The notes under the pieces were generated by a model. That model did not search any database and had not been told where the DNA came from. It saw nothing but the letters and a program-made list of their open reading frames with translations. The translations under genes and the position numbers were made by a program. Shown here piece after piece: positions 41,493 to 52,217 of a stretch of DNA of 64,000 nt (its first letter is position 1; each line of letters begins with the position of its first letter). This DNA comes from Streptomyces sp. PCS3-D2 (GTDB taxonomy: Bacteria; Actinomycetota; Actinomycetes; Streptomycetales; Streptomycetaceae). Where the stretch lies: assembly GCF_000612545.2 (NCBI RefSeq), contig NZ_CP097800.1, positions 6,998,001 to 7,062,000 of the forward strand, read 5' to 3'.

Positions 41493-41903
41493 TCAGTCCA
41501 ACGTGTAGGTGAAGGCGTACTCGACGGAGCCGGCGCCGTGGCGGCAGGTGAAACCGCCCGAACCCGTCAGGCCCACGAGGTCCCCGGTTCCGGAGCCGGG
41601 GACCACCTCGAAACGGCAGACGGTGCCATCGGCGTCGAAGGTGCCGCGCTCCTCCAGCACGAACCGTCCCTCGCGGCCGTCGACACGGCCCGACAACAGC
41701 TCCATCCCGCTGTAGCTCCCGGTGCTCTCGCCGGTGTACGCGATCGTGTAGTCGCAGCTGGTGCCGGTTGCCTCGACGCCGCCGGTGAAGCTGTTGGTGA
41801 CGCGGGCGTGAGCGAGCCGAGGCGCCCCCTCCGCCGCTCCGACGGCGGTCTCCTCCCAGTCGGCGAAGGTGAAGCGGCCGCGGGTCTCCACGGGTGTGGG
41901 CAT
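41493..41903 (-). CDS. DUF3224 family protein
   Basis: A 136-residue DUF3224 protein: ETRGRFTFADWEE at the start and YTGESTGSYSGMELLSGRVDGREGRFVLEERGTFDADG...GSGTGDLVGLTGSGGF fit the family, a lipocalin-like beta-barrel of unknown ligand. ATG 41903 follows GGGAGGACCTC, a strong ribosome binding site. It is divergent from the WYL regulator, and a long palindrome lies between the two starts. Confidence 0.85.
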   Translation of the reverse strand: MPTPVETRGRFTFADWEETAVGAAEGAPRLAHARVTNSFTGGVEATGTSCDYTIAYTGESTGSYSGMELLSGRVDGREGRFVLEERGTFDADGTVCRFEVVPGSGTGDLVGLTGSGGFTCRHGAGSVEYAFTYTLD

Positions 41904-41960
41904 GAGGTCCTCCCGGTGGCCGGACGGTCCCTCCGCCCGGCGCCCTGCCAGGCTGGCAGC

Positions 41961-41987
41961 CGTACCTGACACCTTCTGTCAGGTACG
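41961..41987. promoter_or_regulatory. Long palindrome between DUF3224 and WYL regulator
   Basis: CGTACCTGACA and TGTCAGGTACG form perfect 11-bp arms around CCTTC, centred in the 99-bp divergent promoter region and immediately upstream of the WYL gene. This strength and position suit an operator for autoregulation and control of the DUF3224 gene. Confidence 0.65.
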
Positions 41988-42002
41988 GCGAGAATGGGCG
42001 CC

Positions 42003-43007
42003 ATGCGTGCCGACCGGCTCCTCTCCCTGCTCCTGCTGCTGCAGAACCGCGGCCGGATGACCGCCCCCGAGATCGCCCACGCGCTGGAGGTGTCCACGCG
42101 CACCGTTTACCGCGACATCGACGCGCTCGGCGCCGCGGGCGTGCCCGTGCTGGCCGACCGGGGTCCGGCGGGCGGCTACCGGTTGGCCGACGGCTACCGC
42201 ACGCGCCTCACCGGCCTCACCGACGTCCAGGCGGGCTCGCTCTTCCTGGCGGGCGTCCCGGGGCCCGCCCAGGACCTCGGGCTCGGTGCGGATCTGGCCG
42301 CCGCCACGCTGAAGCTCCAGGCGGCGCTGCCCGCCCAGCTCGCCGGACGGGCCCGGCGGGTCCAGGACCGCTTCCACCTCGATGCGACGGCCTGGTTCCG
42401 GGACGCCGACCCCGTGCCGCACCTCGCGCGGATCGCCCAGGCCGTCTGGGACCAGCGGGTCCTGTACGCCCACTACCGTCGCTGGAGCGGTGAGGTGCGG
42501 CGCGCACTCCACCCGCTGGGCCTCGTCCTCAAGGGCGGCATCTGGTACCTGGTGGCCGGGACCGGGGCGGGGACCGGGACCGGGGCGGGCGCCGGGGGGA
42601 ACGGGGTCGACAGCGTACGGACCTACCGCGTCGCCCGGTTCCTCGGGGTGGACACCGCCGAGGACGGCTTCGAACGCCCGGCCGGCTTCGAACTCGCCGC
42701 GTACTGGAAAGAGTCCACCGGCCGTCTCGACGCAGCCCTGCACCAGCAGACCGCGCGGCTGCGCCTCTCCCCGCGCGGCCGCCGCCTGCTGCCGATGCAG
42801 TTCGGAGCGGCGGGCACGCGGGCGCTCGCCGAGGCCGGCCCGCCCGACGCGGACGGCTGGATCCGGATCAGCCTCGCGGTCGAGTCCGAGACCATCGCCG
42901 TCGGCGACCTCCTGCGCCTGGGTACGGAGGTCGAGGTGCTCGGCCCGCCCCGACTGCGCCGAGCCCTCGCCGAAACGGTGACCGCGCTCGCCGCCCGCTA
43001 CGCGTGA
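42003..43007 (+). CDS. YafY-type HTH/WYL transcriptional regulator
   Basis: A 334-residue regulator. The N-terminal winged helix (MRADRLLSLLLLLQNRGRMTAPEIAHALEVSTRTVYRDIDALGAAGVPVLADRGPAGGYRL, residues 1-60) is typical of YafY/DeoR-like WYL proteins. The WYL domain follows (about 140-230: VLYAHYRRWSGEVRRALHPLGLVLKGGIWYLVAG) with a C-terminal WCX extension. An unusual Gly/Thr/Ala stretch (GTGAGTGTGAGAGG) interrupts the WYL domain near residue 186. ATG 42003 gives the better spacing from GGCGAGA; ATG 41994 is also in frame. Probably self-regulated through the palindrome at 41961. Confidence 0.8.
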   Translation: MRADRLLSLLLLLQNRGRMTAPEIAHALEVSTRTVYRDIDALGAAGVPVLADRGPAGGYRLADGYRTRLTGLTDVQAGSLFLAGVPGPAQDLGLGADLAAATLKLQAALPAQLAGRARRVQDRFHLDATAWFRDADPVPHLARIAQAVWDQRVLYAHYRRWSGEVRRALHPLGLVLKGGIWYLVAGTGAGTGTGAGAGGNGVDSVRTYRVARFLGVDTAEDGFERPAGFELAAYWKESTGRLDAALHQQTARLRLSPRGRRLLPMQFGAAGTRALAEAGPPDADGWIRISLAVESETIAVGDLLRLGTEVEVLGPPRLRRALAETVTALAARYA

Positions 43008-43895: not shown

Positions 43896-44339
43896 TCAGC
43901 GGCCGTACTGCCGCAGGCACAGGTCGACGACCGACGGTGGTACGACACCGTCGGCGGCCGCGCACAGCTCGTCCAGGCGGGGCGGCGGCGCCGGCCGGCG
44001 GTGCGGGTGCGCGGTCGGGGCCCCGGGCAGCCGGTTGTGTCGCGGCGGGGCCGCCCGCTGCACCCGCGGCCGCTCGCCCGGCGAGGCAGGGGCGGGCGTC
44101 CGGTCCGGACCCGCAGCAGGCGCCCGGGCGGTGCCCGGGGCCGGACCGGTCCCGACGGCCGGGGGCAGTTCCCCCAGCGGCAGGGCCGGCGGCGCGGCCC
44201 GCTCGGGCCCGTCGGCCGAGGGCACGGACCCTCCTGCGCGGGAGGGAGCCGCAGCCGGGTCGTGCGGGCCGACGCACACACAGCCGGCGCTCGCCAGGAG
44301 CGCGGCGAGGGAGAGGGGCAGGGCACGGCGTAACTGCAT
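43896..44339 (-). CDS. Putative lipoprotein (paralogue of 51729)
   Basis: A 147-residue lipoprotein. MQLRRALPLSLAALLASAGC is a signal with a lipobox ending at Cys20. A Pro-rich, probably unstructured stretch follows and then a conserved C-terminus DELCAAADGVVPPSVVDLC with two cysteines. The gene at 51729-52217 has the same start (MQLRRALPL-LAAL), the same C-terminal motif and near-identical sequence around its start codon. Function unknown; it should be anchored on the outer face of the membrane. Confidence 0.6.
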   Translation of the reverse strand: MQLRRALPLSLAALLASAGCVCVGPHDPAAAPSRAGGSVPSADGPERAAPPALPLGELPPAVGTGPAPGTARAPAAGPDRTPAPASPGERPRVQRAAPPRHNRLPGAPTAHPHRRPAPPPRLDELCAAADGVVPPSVVDLCLRQYGR

Positions 44340-47043: not shown

Positions 47044-49881
47044 TCAGGCGACCAGGTCCGGTACCTCACCGCCCGCCGCCCAGGACACCTCCACCCCGCG
47101 CAGACCCGCCCGCCAGCGGTCGGCGACTTTGGCCAGCCGCGCGGAGTCCGGCGGAGCGGCGCCCAGGCCGATCGCGTACCGAGCGAGGCCCGGCCCGGAC
47201 TCGAACGGGCGGGGCCAGGCGTGCACCCCGGTGACACCGGCTTCCTCCAGCGCACCGAGGAGCGCCCGCAGCCGCCCGCGCACCCGTCCCCGCACCTCCT
47301 CGAACTCCGCCTCGGCCGCCCGCACGGTCACCACCGCCCAGGCCGCGTGCCGGTGGTGCGGCGCGGGGGCGGCCGAGGCCAGGGCGTCCACCTCCAGCCC
47401 CGACTCCAACAGCTCCCAGGCCCCGTACAACTCCTGCACCAGGAAGTCCCGCAGGCCTGGTGTCACCTGGGCGGTGCAACTGCGCACCGGTTCGGAAGGG
47501 GTGAGGACCGTGACCGGATCCGGCCCCGCGGCGGACACCCCCAACGCGACCGGCTCGCGCCAGTCCCAGGCGGCCCACCGCCCGAAGAACTCCCGCACCA
47601 GGTCGTCGGCCGGCAGGACCCCCGCCTCCCGGACCGTGCGCGCCGCGAGGACCGACCAGGCCAGCCCCGGCAGGCCCCCGAACGGCGCCGAGTCCAGACC
47701 CCTGGCCCGCGCCCACGCCTTCACCCGCCGCGCGAGCCCGGCGAACGCGGCATGCCCGGCGCCGACTGCCTCCCGTACGGCGTCCGCGTCGCTCACCGCG
47801 CTCAGCGCGACGGCGGCCGCCTCACCCAGCTCCCCGCGCCGCGCCACCGCCAGCGCCGGGTCGAGGCCGCCGGTGGGGACCACCGCCAGGTCCACGGACA
47901 GGGTCCCGACGCACAGGCGCAGGCCCGGCACCCGGGCGCCCGTCACCTCGCGCAGCCCACTGGCGCGCGGCAGCGCGGCCGCCACCCGGTCACGTACCAG
48001 GGCAACGTCAACGGTCCCCGGCAGCGCCGCCACCAGGTCCAGATCTGCTCCCGGAAGCTCGCAGCCCATCCGGCGCGAGCCGGCCACGTGCACGCGCGCG
48101 CCGGGCAGCGCGGCGCCGATCCGCGCCACCACCGCATCGGCGTGGTCGGACCCGCCTTCGGGTCGGGGCCCGGGCAAGGGCTCCGAAGCGCGGCGGACCT
48201 CACCCGTCCCCAGCGTCACCACCGCCCGCACCCGCATCGGTCCGTCCCCGCGCCGCGAGAGCACGGCGAGCTCCCCGACCCGCGCGGACACCGCCCCGCC
48301 CAGCCTCGCCGCGAACTCCCGGGCCGCCCGCTGCGGGTCGCCGCTGCGCCCCAGCGTCAGGTGCGGGGTGTAGCCCCCGGGCCCGTCGGAGCGCCCGCGG
48401 CAGCCGGGAAAGCGGTCCTCCAGCGCTCGCCGGAGCTCCTGCCACGGCGCCTCACCACCAGCCGCCGGGTCCAGCCAGAGGGTGGCCTCTTCGCGGTGGC
48501 CGAAGCTGTGCACCCCCTCCAGCCGGACGTCGAACGGAGCGGTCCCCGCAGCGACGTCGGCCAGCAGCGGGACGGCCTCGCCGAAGGAGGACTCCGGTAC
48601 GAAGCCGAAGAGCAGGTTCACGTGTGCGGGCCAGCGCCCCTGCGCCGGGTCGTGTGCGCGGCGCACCTCCCGCACCGCCTCCGGAAGGCGGGGCGGCAGC
48701 CACGCGACGGCCGTCCGCACCGTCGCCGGTACGTCGAGCCGCGCCGGTCCCGCGCCGGGCGACCCGAACTCGACCGTCGCCTCCACGCCGAAGTGGTCGG
48801 AGACGAACAGCCCGTCGGGGGCCGGGGTGGCGCCGCGCAGCGCCGCCCGCGTCACCCGGGCCGGGGTCGGGCCCAGCAGGATCCGGTCCAGCCGGGCGGC
48901 GCGCCCCGACAGGGAACCCACCGCGGCCAGCGGATTGACCGCCGGGTCGAAGGTCGGTGTGGCGTCCGCCGTCCCGTGCACCTCGCACCAGGCGTCCCGC
49001 ATGCCGAGCGCGGGTGCGGGCCCCTCGACCCCGTGGCGGCCGTCGTTGAAGTCGCCCAGCAGGGCGACACCGGCTTCGACACCGCCCAGGCCCTCCGCGA
49101 GCCGGGCCAGTTCGGCCTCCCGCCGCCCGGCCCCGTTCTCGCTGTGGTCGCTGGTCAGGTGGGTCGCGGCCACCACCAGCGGTCCGGCAGCGGTATCCAC
49201 CGCCACAGCGGTGACCGCCTTGTGCGGACGCAGGGCGTGCAGGCCCGCCTCGCGCACCGGCAGCCGGCTCAGCACCAGCAGTCCGTACGCGGCGACGTCC
49301 CGGCCGCCGGGATCCGTGCCCAGCGTGAACCCGGCCCGCACCCACGGAGCCGCCAGCAGCATGCCGAGCAACTCCGGCTCGACCTCCTGGAGGGCGATCA
49401 CGTCGGCGTCCGCGGCGGCCAGGTCGTCCAGCAGGAGCGGTCTGCGCCGGGCCGTGGCGATGCGCGTCGCGTCGTAGCGGTCCCACAGGGTGTTCCAGGT
49501 CAGCAGGCGCACCGAGGCCGGCGCCGCCGCGGCGTCCACGGGAGCGGCCGGGGCGGGCCGCCACCCGCCGCCGCCCGCCGGATCCCACGCGTACGGGGTC
49601 CGCGCGGTGAAGAAGGGGGCCCGCAGCAGGCGCGGGTCACGGACCCGGCCCGCCCCGGTCGCATCGATCAGGTCCACACCGGTGGCCCGGTCCCACACCA
49701 GCTCGCCGTCGGCCTCGACGAACAGCACCCGGTGCCAGGGGATGTCCCCGCCGGGCACGAAGGAGGGCAGCGGGACCCGCTTGGGCGCCGCCCCGCGCTG
49801 GAGCACGCCGAACACGAACCGCGCCGGATCGAACCGCGGGTCCCAGCGGACCTGGTGGTAGAGCTGCTCACTGGTGCGCAT
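47044..49881 (-). CDS. RNA-repair protein: MJ1316/DUF504 - EEP - 2H phosphoesterase - poly(A) polymerase
   Basis: A 945-residue four-domain protein. Residues 1-75 match the MJ1316/DUF504 domain (LYHQVRWDPRFDPARFVFGVLQRG...IPWHRVLFV), proposed to recognise cyclic-phosphate RNA ends. Residues about 122-375 are an endonuclease/exonuclease/phosphatase domain (RLLTWNTLWD, Glu166 in LQEVE, GDFND at 276-280, SDH at 361-363). Residues about 395-560 are a 2H/LigT-like phosphoesterase (His420 in HVNL, His507 in HLTL). Residues about 580-945 are a eukaryotic-type nucleotidyltransferase/poly(A) polymerase (GSRRMGCELPGADLDL with D613 and D615, D664, then VKAWARARGLDSAPFGGLPGLAWSV). Its start overlaps the ligase-kinase gene by 14 bp. 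The set would process broken RNA ends and re-add 3' nucleotides; individual activities are inferred. Confidence 0.85.
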   Translation of the reverse strand: MRTSEQLYHQVRWDPRFDPARFVFGVLQRGAAPKRVPLPSFVPGGDIPWHRVLFVEADGELVWDRATGVDLIDATGAGRVRDPRLLRAPFFTARTPYAWDPAGGGGWRPAPAAPVDAAAAPASVRLLTWNTLWDRYDATRIATARRRPLLLDDLAAADADVIALQEVEPELLGMLLAAPWVRAGFTLGTDPGGRDVAAYGLLVLSRLPVREAGLHALRPHKAVTAVAVDTAAGPLVVAATHLTSDHSENGAGRREAELARLAEGLGGVEAGVALLGDFNDGRHGVEGPAPALGMRDAWCEVHGTADATPTFDPAVNPLAAVGSLSGRAARLDRILLGPTPARVTRAALRGATPAPDGLFVSDHFGVEATVEFGSPGAGPARLDVPATVRTAVAWLPPRLPEAVREVRRAHDPAQGRWPAHVNLLFGFVPESSFGEAVPLLADVAAGTAPFDVRLEGVHSFGHREEATLWLDPAAGGEAPWQELRRALEDRFPGCRGRSDGPGGYTPHLTLGRSGDPQRAAREFAARLGGAVSARVGELAVLSRRGDGPMRVRAVVTLGTGEVRRASEPLPGPRPEGGSDHADAVVARIGAALPGARVHVAGSRRMGCELPGADLDLVAALPGTVDVALVRDRVAAALPRASGLREVTGARVPGLRLCVGTLSVDLAVVPTGGLDPALAVARRGELGEAAAVALSAVSDADAVREAVGAGHAAFAGLARRVKAWARARGLDSAPFGGLPGLAWSVLAARTVREAGVLPADDLVREFFGRWAAWDWREPVALGVSAAGPDPVTVLTPSEPVRSCTAQVTPGLRDFLVQELYGAWELLESGLEVDALASAAPAPHHRHAAWAVVTVRAAEAEFEEVRGRVRGRLRALLGALEEAGVTGVHAWPRPFESGPGLARYAIGLGAAPPDSARLAKVADRWRAGLRGVEVSWAAGGEVPDLVA

Positions 49882-51658
49882 CGCAACCCCCGCCCGCCGT
49901 GACCGCGCCGGGAGCGAGGCCCCCGGCCGTGTCCTCCACGTTGCCGCCCGCGCCGACGTACCACGTGCGGTGCGCCCGGCCCGCGTACGGCGGGCTGAAC
50001 CGGTGCAGCTGCGAGGCCAACACCTGCGCCGGCACCGGGTGCGGGCGCACGCCGTTGCGGCGCTCCAGCTCCCCCTCCTCGACCAGCACCACGGCCTGGG
50101 TGACCAGCGCGCCGCGGCGGCGCGCGACCGCACCGACCGGCCCGCGCTGCTGCTCGGTGAGCGAGGTGGCGTCCCACACCACCGTCCCGCCGCGGGCCAG
50201 GGCGGCATCGAGCCGGCCCAGGCCCTCGCGCAGCACGTCCGCGTTGGCCCGCTGGTCCGCACGTGAGCCCCGGGCGGCGCGCAGGTCGTCGAGGCAGACG
50301 TACGCGTCCACGCCGGGCAGGCCGCGGCCGAAGGTGCTCTTCCCGCTGCCTGAGGGGCCGCACAGCTGCACCAGCCGGGGAAACGATCCGCCGCGCCACT
50401 GCCACGTCGCCGCCACGGCCTCCTCCACCGCCGTTCCGGAGATCCTGCCGTCCGCGAACGCGCGTCGGGCCTCCGCCCAGCAGCGGTCGGCCGCGGCCGC
50501 CTCCAGCCCGGCGAGCGGATCACGCAGTGCCTCGCGCAGGCACTCCAGCGGATCCGGGCCGCCCAGCAGCTCCGCCTCCGCGGCCCACAGCGCGGACCAT
50601 TCCACGCACTCGCGCGCGCCGGGTCCGTCGGCCAGTGCCCCGGCGAGCGCGTGCAGCACGCCGAGATCGGCCGCCGCGGCCAACCGTACGAGCCCGGCCC
50701 GCCGGTCGGCGTCGGGGAACGGCCTCTGGAGGCGGGGGTACAGCCCGAGCAGGTCGCCGACGCGCCGGGCGAGCGCCATTCCGGCCGGTCCGGCCGCGAG
50801 CCGCGCCGCGACCCGGGCACGCGGTTCGCGGCGCAGCAGCGCGGCCAGCACCCCGGCCAGCCGGTCCTCGCCGGTCCTCCCCGACGCGTCGATCCGGGCG
50901 GCGGCCTCCGCCACCTCGGCCCCCGCCTCCGCACCGGGTCCCACCCCGGTGCCCGCAGCCGCGGATCCGGGCGGGCCGACGGCGGCCGACAGGGCCGCGA
51001 CATCCGGCTCGGCGCCGGAACGCACCGCCCACAACGGGGCCGCCCTCCCGAGCCCGTTGGGCACGACCTGCGCGTGCATCCAGTGCGTGTCGGTCTGCAC
51101 ATGACCGGCCCGCACCCACTTGGCCACGCACCGCCCGAAGTCCGCACGGTCGAAACCGGCGGCCGTGCGCACGACGTAGCCCTCCTGCCGGGCGGTGTCC
51201 AGCCTCAGCCTGCGCAGCGCGCGTTCGTCGAAGGTGCCGCGCCACAGCACCCGCGGGGAGGGCACACCCAGGCCGTGCAGAAACCGCACGGTCCGGTCCC
51301 AGTCGAGACAGCGCTCCCCGTCCCACACCGAGAATCCGTAGAACCAGCTGTCCAGGTCCTCGTACGGGATCGAGTGCCGGGCGTAGAGGTTCTCCCCGCA
51401 CACCCGCCATCCCGCCGGAATACCGGGGCCGATCCGCCCCTGCAGGCCCTTGACCCAGGCCCGTGAGGGGTGGTGGCCCGAGTCGAGCGAGCGGGCGTGC
51501 AGCCCGTCGGCGTACAGGGTGGTGTTCTCCCCGTCGAGCTTCTCGGTGACCACGACCTCCCGGCCGGTCAGCCCCGCGGACCCGACGGCCCGGACGTCGT
51601 CCGCCGCGGCCCCCGGCGACCAGGGAAGATGGGGCGTACGAGGATAGTGGGTGCGCAT
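49868..51658 (-). CDS. RNA ligase fused to polynucleotide kinase-like domain
   Basis: A 596-residue fusion. The N-terminal nucleotidyltransferase ligase (residues about 1-195) carries motif I KLDGENT (Lys40, the AMP site), a motif III-like WFYGFSVWD, motif IV EGYVVR and motif V VAKWVRAGH, as in T4 Rnl2-type RNA ligases. A helical linker (about 200-425) follows. The C-terminal P-loop kinase (about 426-596) has Walker A GPSGSGKST at 434-442 and downstream D-x-T (VVWDATS) and R-rich lid sequences, like polynucleotide 5'-kinases. ATG 51658 follows GGAGCGGATC. It is first in the two-gene unit and would supply 5'-phosphate and sealing steps for the partner gene product. Confidence 0.85.
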   Translation of the reverse strand: MRTHYPRTPHLPWSPGAAADDVRAVGSAGLTGREVVVTEKLDGENTTLYADGLHARSLDSGHHPSRAWVKGLQGRIGPGIPAGWRVCGENLYARHSIPYEDLDSWFYGFSVWDGERCLDWDRTVRFLHGLGVPSPRVLWRGTFDERALRRLRLDTARQEGYVVRTAAGFDRADFGRCVAKWVRAGHVQTDTHWMHAQVVPNGLGRAAPLWAVRSGAEPDVAALSAAVGPPGSAAAGTGVGPGAEAGAEVAEAAARIDASGRTGEDRLAGVLAALLRREPRARVAARLAAGPAGMALARRVGDLLGLYPRLQRPFPDADRRAGLVRLAAAADLGVLHALAGALADGPGARECVEWSALWAAEAELLGGPDPLECLREALRDPLAGLEAAAADRCWAEARRAFADGRISGTAVEEAVAATWQWRGGSFPRLVQLCGPSGSGKSTFGRGLPGVDAYVCLDDLRAARGSRADQRANADVLREGLGRLDAALARGGTVVWDATSLTEQQRGPVGAVARRRGALVTQAVVLVEEGELERRNGVRPHPVPAQVLASQLHRFSPPYAGRAHRTWYVGAGGNVEDTAGGLAPGAVTAGGGCDAHQ

Positions 51659-51728: not shown

Positions 51729-52217
51729 TCAGCGGCAGAGCGCCACGATGGCCGGTGACACCGTGCCCCTGGCCGCCTCGCACAGTGCGGTCATGTCGTA
51801 CGAACGCCCCGTGGCGGGACGGGACGTGGGCGGGACCGCCGGCTGCGGGCGGGCCTTCCCCCGGGCCGCTGGCTTCGCCGGTTTCACCGTTCTCACGGAC
51901 CTGGGCGGCTTCGCCCTGCGCGGCGGGCGCACGGGCCGGTGCGGCGCGGACGCCCGCAGGGACGCGGCTCTGTCCGACTCCGACTCCGACTCCGACTCCG
52001 ATTCCGGCTCGGGCGCTGGCGCCGGTTCCGTGGCCGTCACCGCCGGCAGCCGCCCCAACGGCAGGGCGGCAGCGGTGGGTTCACGCGGCAGGCCGCGACT
52101 CCCGGCGGCCGGCCGCGGAGTGTCCGGTGAGGTGACGGGCGCGGGACGCACCGTCACGCATCCGGAGGCCATGACGAGCGCGGCAAGGGTCAGGGGCAGG
52201 GCCCGGCGCAGCTGCAT
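51729..52217 (-). CDS. Putative lipoprotein (paralogue of 43896)
   Basis: A 162-residue lipoprotein: MQLRRALPLTLAALVMASGC with a lipobox at Cys20, a Ser/Glu and Pro-rich stretch and the C-terminus DMTALCEAARGTVSPAIVALC. The start and end match the lipoprotein at 43896-44339, and the sequence around both starts is nearly identical (GCAAGGTGGTCGG versus GCAGGGTGGTCGG before ATG). Central Ser-Glu repeats come from a hexanucleotide repeat. Function unknown. It lies 70 bp upstream of the RNA-repair operon on the same strand, so co-transcription is possible. Confidence 0.6.
   Translation of the reverse strand: MQLRRALPLTLAALVMASGCVTVRPAPVTSPDTPRPAAGSRGLPREPTAAALPLGRLPAVTATEPAPAPEPESESESESESDRAASLRASAPHRPVRPPRRAKPPRSVRTVKPAKPAARGKARPQPAVPPTSRPATGRSYDMTALCEAARGTVSPAIVALCR
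51975..52010. repeat. Hexanucleotide GACTCC-type tandem repeat
   Basis: About six 6-bp units (GACTCC, last ones diverged) inside the lipoprotein gene, encoding alternating Ser-Glu on the minus strand. Unit number could vary by slippage without shifting the frame. Confidence 0.7.

Follow-up and report, generated by a model that had tools for sequence, protein, structure and literature searches.

A stretch of 64,000 nucleotides from the chromosome of Streptomyces sp. PCS3-D2 (NZ_CP097800.1, positions 6,998,001 to 7,062,000; hereafter the window) carries a two-gene cassette which, with a probability we put at about 0.7, would be a machine dedicated to repairing RNA breaks with 2',3'-cyclic-phosphate and 5'-OH ends. 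Positions 47044-51658 are fully taken up by two minus-strand genes. The first encodes P1, a fusion of an RNA ligase, a degenerate HD domain and a 5'-OH polynucleotide kinase; the second encodes P2, which combines MJ1316, EEP, 2H and poly(A) polymerase (PAP) domains. The domains, their catalytic residues, the co-occurrence of the genes, the homology and decay of the HD domain and the natural absence of 2H from some P2 proteins are established at the sequence level. The features of the cassette are as follows:

49868-51658, minus strand: P1 gene, RNA ligase - degenerate HD domain - 5'-OH polynucleotide kinase, 596 amino acids
51044-51658, minus strand: ATP-dependent RNA ligase domain of the DRB0100 type, P1 residues 1-205 (PF09414; adenylylation residue Lys40)
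50384-51043, minus strand: shrunken HD domain with most ligand positions lost, P1 residues 206-425 (hhalign to HD-Pnk)
49988-50374, minus strand: polynucleotide kinase domain with P-loop GPSGSGKS, P1 residues 429-557 (PF13671)
49868-49881, minus strand: overlap of the P1 end and the P2 start, 14 nucleotides
47044-49881, minus strand: P2 gene, MJ1316-EEP-2H-PAP, 945 amino acids
49687-49881, minus strand: MJ1316 RNA cyclic-end recognition domain, P2 residues 1-65 (PF04457, 6.2e-18)
48793-49503, minus strand: EEP nuclease/phosphatase domain, P2 residues 127-363 (PF03372, Exo_endo_phos, 3.8e-16)
48244-48696, minus strand: 2H phosphoesterase domain with H420 and H507, P2 residues 396-546 (PF13563, 2_5_RNA_ligase2, 3.4e-34)
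47053-48150, minus strand: nuclear-type PAP domain with D613, D615 and D664, P2 residues 578-943 (4lt6)

The preliminary description of this region had proposed a two-gene RNA repair cassette; its coordinates were exact, and the overlap and pairing of the genes were borne out. Each domain named in it was recovered by the domain database search of both proteins (Pfam matches above the curated cut-offs; PAP also by a structure profile), and the residues it had picked out as catalytic (K40 in P1; H420, H507, D613 and D615 in P2) are all present at those positions. RNA repair remains the most economical reading of the domain set and the pairing. Its interpretation held for the domains, the pairing, RNA repair and the rarity of the PAP and was not supported for two further proposals, CCA re-addition and a colicin-type trigger. 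It had overlooked the degenerate HD domain (approximately P1 residues 206-425), the HxN form of the first 2H motif and the replacement of the Tyr/Asn pair in PAP.

Domain composition and conservation of the two proteins

The sequence set comprised 91 P1 and 88 actinobacterial P2 proteins plus one P2 from Calothrix, and was drawn from the window, the loci of a P1 scan of a genome collection and further sequences from the relatives of the window. The scan returned at least 540 P1 relatives, of which the best 80, all with actinobacterial titles, were kept. Five loci (L033, L054, L077, L083, and L099) were excluded from the P2 counts, their P2 being truncated at the end of a contig or split over two reading frames. 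Structural relationships were derived from PDB sequence profiles and from profile-profile alignment with a shuffle control.

The RNA_ligase family (PF09414) matched P1 residues 33-182 with an E-value of 1.6e-32 and 113 bits against a cut-off of 27. Residues K40, D42, G43, E89, N90, E159, G160, and K180 were invariant in all 91 P1 proteins; the conserved positions correspond to ligase motifs I, III, IV, and V. The ligase part is 58.7% identical to the ligase of the D. radiodurans MP1 plasmid (residues 1-205; tblastn in plasmids). The structure-profile search of P1 gave no ligase structure at an E-value of 0.1. The kinase part was matched by AAA_33 (PF13671) over residues 429-557 (E-value 8e-19), with G434, G439, K440, S441, D457, and R460 kept in 91/91 proteins; within the P-loop, single departures occurred at residues 437 and 438, and residue 436 was Ser or Ala. 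Its nearest structures were 4jst (2.5e-8), which is annotated as a metallophosphoesterase in the structure listing and which we take to be the clostridial Pnkp kinase, and T4 polynucleotide kinase 1ly1 (1.5e-5).

From approximately residue 209 to the end of the kinase, P1 aligned with the HD-kinases of Deinococcus over nearly the whole HD-Pnk length. Residues 206-418 alone aligned with the N-terminal half of Deinococcus HD-Pnk at an hhalign E-value of 4e-9 and a score of 64, the maximum in 50 column shuffles being 25. By this comparison, the middle of P1 is a homologous but decayed HD domain. The reference positions were taken from DRB0098 (H43/H51, H81-D82, H107, H138-H140, and D173), with ligand roles deduced from conservation. 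Equivalents of H43, H51, H107, H138, H140, and D173 were found in none of the 91 P1 proteins, and a His equivalent to H139 was present in 49/91. The Pfam HD model did not match any of the 50 P1 proteins scanned (50 of the 91) at 0.1, and at 0.01 it matched 7/7 unfused HD-kinases scanned, one of them below the curated cut-off.

The counterparts of P1 in D. radiodurans belong to an operon consisting of DRB0100, DRB0099, and DRB0098 according to the cited part of PMC11833690. In the MP1 plasmid, the ligase gene is followed by a PARG macrodomain gene and then by the HD-plus-kinase gene; three other Deinococcus plasmids have the ligase gene directly next to the HD-kinase gene. The Deinococcus operon shares with P1 the ligase clade, Lys40 at the equivalent place and the kinase, but differs in having separate genes, an intact HD domain and an intervening PARG gene, with no MJ1316/EEP/2H/PAP protein beside it. 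As judged from the alignments, P1 is a fusion of two proteins of this operon, DRB0100 (ligase) and DRB0098 (HD phosphatase-kinase). The HD motif was intact in 9/9 unfused HD-kinases encoded beside this type of ligase (four from Deinococcus, one from Pseudomonas, and four from actinobacteria). No P2 was found in the flanks read around any of these nine genes, and the four actinobacterial genomes with an unfused HD-kinase gave no P2 match. Among plasmids, P2 was detected in eight records only, none of Deinococcus or Pseudomonas. In another actinobacterial genus, a three-gene unit (L217 4512-8468, L218 5121-8589, L219 5307-8539, and L220 6528-9886) encodes a DUF2786-type protein, an RNA ligase and an intact HD-polynucleotide kinase, the first gene being identified by Pfam on L217 and the others by eye.

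The N-terminal MJ1316 domain of P2 scored 65.7 bits against a Pfam cut-off of 26.3 and was matched in 45/45 P2 proteins scanned at 0.001. This domain is described as a recogniser of 2',3'-cyclic ends fused to RNA repair domains in the cited part of PMC6514570, which gives the survey of MJ1316-associated systems by Burroughs and Aravind (2016, NAR 44:8525) as the source for end recognition. The EEP residues N130, E166, H241, D277, N279, D362, and H363 were invariant in 88/88 P2 proteins and in the Calothrix protein. In the 2H part, a LigT_PEase match above its curated cut-off overlapped that of 2_5_RNA_ligase2, and the nearest structure was B. subtilis BSU11850 (2e-5). Both H420 and H507 were present in all 80 P2 proteins with a 2H domain; the first motif was HxN in 80/80 and the second HxT/S in 79/80, the family being defined by two HxS/T motifs in the cited part of PMC5283653. 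The 2H domain was missing from 8/88 P2 proteins, that of L085 among them, all of which retained MJ1316, EEP and PAP, and neither EEP nor PAP was missing from any of the 88. The absence of 2H requires at least three changes on the 86-row tree. Compensation by a stand-alone MJ1316-2H gene was considered and rejected, such a gene being present in 1/8 genomes with a 2H-less P2 vs. 2/20. Stand-alone MJ1316-2H proteins were seen in Streptomyces at L026 5730-6767, L027 5109-5915, and L028 5749-6612 (by Pfam on L027); human LENG9 likewise carries MJ1316 and 2H domains. S. lavendulae CCM 3239 (L042) has a stand-alone gene of this type in addition to its cassette.

The PAP part matched 4lt6 (PAP gamma) at 3.3e-53 over profile positions 15-329, followed by other nuclear poly(A) polymerases, and PAP_central (PF04928) matched residues 716-794 (4e-8). 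The catalytic, central and C-terminal parts of nuclear PAP alpha/gamma all align with P2, and the Asp triad common to both (D613, D615, and D664) was invariant in 88/88 actinobacterial proteins. Hence, on the profile evidence, the P2 PAP is of nuclear type by descent. The nuclear enzymes have the Tyr and Asn of an IYSN stretch, which presumably contact the incoming ATP in the adenine site, whereas actinobacterial P2 has Asp730 and Ala732; the Calothrix P2 retains both residues. Since Tyr and Asn are replaced, poly(A) specificity of the domain cannot be assumed. The same holds for CCA re-addition, a proposal of the preliminary description that is not sustained by a domain closest to nuclear poly(A) polymerases with these two residues altered.

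Co-occurrence and distribution of the pair

P2 adjoined P1 in 80/80 best-matching loci across actinobacteria (complete in 75, incomplete in 5), in line with the pairing expected beforehand. The two genes overlapped by 1 nucleotide in 54 of the 75 complete pairs and by 14 nucleotides in 3. Among 296 sampled genomes of the class, full-length P1 and full-length P2 were found in the same 13 genomes, adjacent in 13/13, and no genome had only one of them. PF04928 was detected in exactly these 13 genomes, only inside the cassette, and in 0/14 control genomes, which supports the supposed rarity of a eukaryotic-type PAP in bacteria. MJ1316 was present in 14/296 genomes: besides the 13, a single genome contains it in a stand-alone MJ1316-2H gene, and such a gene accompanies the cassette in one of the 13.

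Among the 40 relatives of the window, the genes were parted in two cases, and both genes were still kept. In G032, P1 and P2 lie on different contigs, that of P2 being 121 kb long with the gene in its interior. In G012 (L015 6624-10369 and L235), a single contig, P1 is broken, with the ligase part 2.8 Mb away from the kinase part; the kinase part still adjoins P2, and the ligase part keeps the promoter element described below. Because of the strict co-occurrence and the retention of both genes where they are parted, P1 and P2 look like a functional unit with a patchy distribution. The dN/dS values ranged from 0.06 to 0.48 for every domain in 9/9 pairs tried; being below 0.5 throughout, they indicate that the conservation of the domains is not due to chance.

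The cassette occurs in Streptomyces and in soil bacteria related to it. On a Calothrix plasmid (L191 5995-8970) lies a P2 homologue of identical domain order, with 30% identity, that keeps the catalytic residues listed above for EEP, 2H and PAP; the plasmid was typed as conjugative, and no P1 lies beside the gene, with a dynamin-family gene close by. A phage origin of the whole cassette was rejected on the matches listed: the best 80 of 276 viral relatives matched P1 only within residues 1-236, the 25 listed out of 32 phage records matched only within residues 1-213, and for P2 the searches gave neither viral nor phage relatives. A route leaving a 2'-phosphate (Trl1/Tpt1) was also considered, for which the distribution of Tpt1/KptA (12/13 cassette genomes) is uninformative because the gene also occurs in 17/21 same-genus genomes without the cassette.

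Upstream element and genomic neighbourhood

A further feature lies upstream of P1:

51690-51728, minus strand: bipartite promoter-like element with the block CCTACAGTGAC

With up to two mismatches, CCTACAGTGAC was found in 59 of the 91 upstream regions of 200 nucleotides and was missing from 32; in 50 shuffles, the mean was 1.6 and the maximum 4. Among 41 genomes, the strict two-block pattern has a single site in the genome of the window and one in G012, both before a P1 start; other cassette-bearing relatives do not fit it.

An S10 ribosomal protein gene was recognised by sequence upstream on the opposite strand in 16 loci (L069, L072, L077, L080, L081, L082, L086, L087, L088, L090, L091, L097, L098, L102, L105, and L110), within 1.6 kb in 14 of them. 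This S10 operon neighbourhood represents one Streptomyces clade, and a lepA neighbourhood, often with rpsT, another family; lepA was recognised within 1.5 kb in nine loci (L016-L024), seven of which also have rpsT. In ten loci (L031-L036, L041, L042, L045, and L053), a second RNA ligase gene lies 1.1-3.9 kb downstream of P2; its product, checked for L053, is 37% identical to DraRnl over its length (E-value 1.8e-57). D. radiodurans likewise has its DraRnl-type ligase encoded close to the DRB0100-type one. A second RNA ligase beside the cassette of the window was rejected, as the candidate gene (41994-43007) encodes a WYL regulator, and the genome gave no match to the DraRnl-like ligase. The region 41493-43007 contains a DUF3224 gene beside this WYL-domain regulator, on the other strand. 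Two similar open reading frames whose products start with MQLRRALPL (43896-44339 and 51729-52217; 36% identity, E-value 4e-7) flank the cassette and are lipoprotein-like by eye. Inspection by eye of the 40 largest clusters of neighbouring genes, taken from 92 loci, showed no recognisable Hen1 gene; a Hen1 profile was not run.

Proposed repair route and alternative explanations

We infer the following for the activities of both proteins and the sequence in which they act, for the RNA substrate and for the replacement of the HD domain. MJ1316 would dock the broken 3' end, 2H would open the cyclic phosphate and EEP would remove the remaining phosphate; where 2H is missing, EEP would probably perform both steps. 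Optionally, a 3' end that has been shortened may be extended by PAP. Phosphorylation of the 5'-OH would then fall to the P1 kinase, and sealing of the RNA to the P1 ligase. ANGEL2 and the CCR4 family to which it belongs have the EEP fold. A precedent for the EEP step is the hydrolysis of RNA 2',3'-cyclic phosphates by ANGEL2 in vitro, as reported in the cited part of PMC9525292.

In evolutionary terms, the ligase and the HD-kinase of a Deinococcus-type operon would have been fused, the HD phosphatase would have decayed, and P2 would have assumed 3'-end healing; most simply, the decay of the HD phosphatase would have followed the transfer of its task to P2. The EEP and 2H domains of P2 probably replaced the lost removal of the 3'-phosphate, because HD is decayed in P1 and intact in unfused HD-kinases without P2. 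The decayed HD domain may in turn explain the presence of phosphatase-type domains on P2.

Fungal and plant tRNA ligases (Trl1/AtRNL) have the architecture ligase-kinase-2H. The cassette resembles them in the order of ligase and kinase and in the presence of a 2H phosphodiesterase, but its ligase belongs to PF09414, its 2H domain is located in P2, and the MJ1316, EEP and PAP domains are additional. The bacterial Pnkp1-Rnl-Hen1 system, in the cited part of PMC4411300, is likewise a multi-enzyme assembly for RNA healing and sealing; the P1 kinase fold is related to Pnkp1 (4xrp, 1.1e-3), but the system is built of other domains than P1 and P2. Healing and sealing of RNA ends is already known from bacteria, and the pairing of a fused ligase/decayed-HD/kinase protein with a four-domain healer represents a variant of this known kind of system. 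No description of the P1/P2 architecture was found in the literature searched, and the survey by Burroughs and Aravind may well list it. The decay of HD, the optional 2H, the change in PAP and the promoter element were found in this analysis; earlier publications were not searched for them item by item.

Several observations weigh against the proposed RNA repair route or parts of it. The decay of HD is not total: Asp of the HD pair is lost in 83/91 P1 proteins, but His is retained in 73/91 and the full pair in 8/91, so that the remnant may have some residual role. The replacement of HD by P2 is read from a correlation, in which the nine intact HD-kinases represent few independent lineages. No stand-alone MJ1316-2H substitute was present in 7/8 genomes with a 2H-less P2, other 2H enzymes not being excluded (in one of the seven, a weak match to 2H was seen; 36% identity, E-value 5.8e-7). 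Taken with the loss of 2H from eight P2 proteins, this is also the reason why EEP rather than 2H is probably the indispensable 3' healer. In PAP, the change of Tyr to Asp730 affects 86/88 and that of Asn to Ala732 88/88 proteins. By eye, the recurrent neighbour clusters listed contained no recognisable toxin, immunity, defence, stress or dedicated regulator gene, and the colicin-type trigger suggested in the preliminary description accordingly found no toxin or immunity gene in its favour. As for the ligase, DRB0100 is adenylylated on K40, but alone it sealed no tested DNA or RNA, and combined with DRB0098 and DRB0099 it sealed no DNA, according to the cited part of PMC1997131. In the cited part of PMC5128194, it is reported to need a complex with DRB0098 and PprA for activity; this dependence fits the fusion in P1, but the activity was given as that of a DNA ligase.

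The latter report is also one of the points in favour of a unit that repairs strand breaks in DNA, or in both DNA and RNA, in which a TDP2-like EEP would clean DNA ends. The P2 EEP is nearest to TDP2 structures (1.8e-13), then to beta-hemolysin (7.9e-8) and weakly to CCR4 types (1.7e-4), and TDP2 is a tyrosyl-DNA phosphodiesterase. In addition, the cited part of PMC1997131 describes the Deinococcus operon as induced by radiation and labels it a putative DNA repair operon. However, MJ1316, 2H and PAP all indicate RNA, and neither a LexA box nor a RecA-NDp-type motif was found in the 91 upstream regions, a weak argument as the patterns used also matched only 2 and 0 of 455 control stretches. This explanation is considered unlikely. 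Even less probable is a unit for remodelling or tailing RNA 3' ends in decay or quality control, with the ligase joining only a special RNA. It would suit the description of Streptomyces as being without PAP I, with RNA tails ascribed to PNPase (the cited part of PMC5872136), and the PAP residues are under selection; but a cassette found in 13/296 genomes is too patchy for general tailing, and full P1 was always co-inherited in that sample. The smallest chance is given to a role in defence or signalling, with the PAP-like nucleotidyltransferase making oligonucleotides that 2H/EEP would degrade. The 2H and EEP folds include 2'-5' oligonucleotide phosphodiesterases, and the Calothrix PAP part weakly matched an oligonucleotide-cyclase model (1.9e-7). 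The nuclear PAP match, including the C-terminal part, is far stronger (3e-53), PADLOC gave no match at 0.01 for P1 or P2 of the window, and no effector gene was recognised.

The repair of RNA with 2',3'-cyclic-phosphate and 5'-OH ends remains the preferred explanation. In its fullest form, which is tentative and rather doubtful as a whole, the cassette would be a complete break-to-seal machine, where the decayed HD has been replaced by the MJ1316-EEP-2H-PAP 3'-end rebuilder, the altered PAP restores lost 3' nucleotides, and DRB0100-type ligases depend on RNA ends that have been processed in this manner. Such a dependence would explain why DRB0100 alone sealed no tested substrate.

The cassette may provide a two-protein system in which the steps from end recognition through 3' healing, a possible 3' extension and 5' phosphorylation to sealing are testable together, and the old puzzle of what DRB0100-type ligases seal could be turned into a direct assay. 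It also hints at a natural exchange in which one phosphatase fold gave way to others. Within the sampled class, PF04928-type poly(A) polymerases were seen only inside this apparent RNA repair unit.

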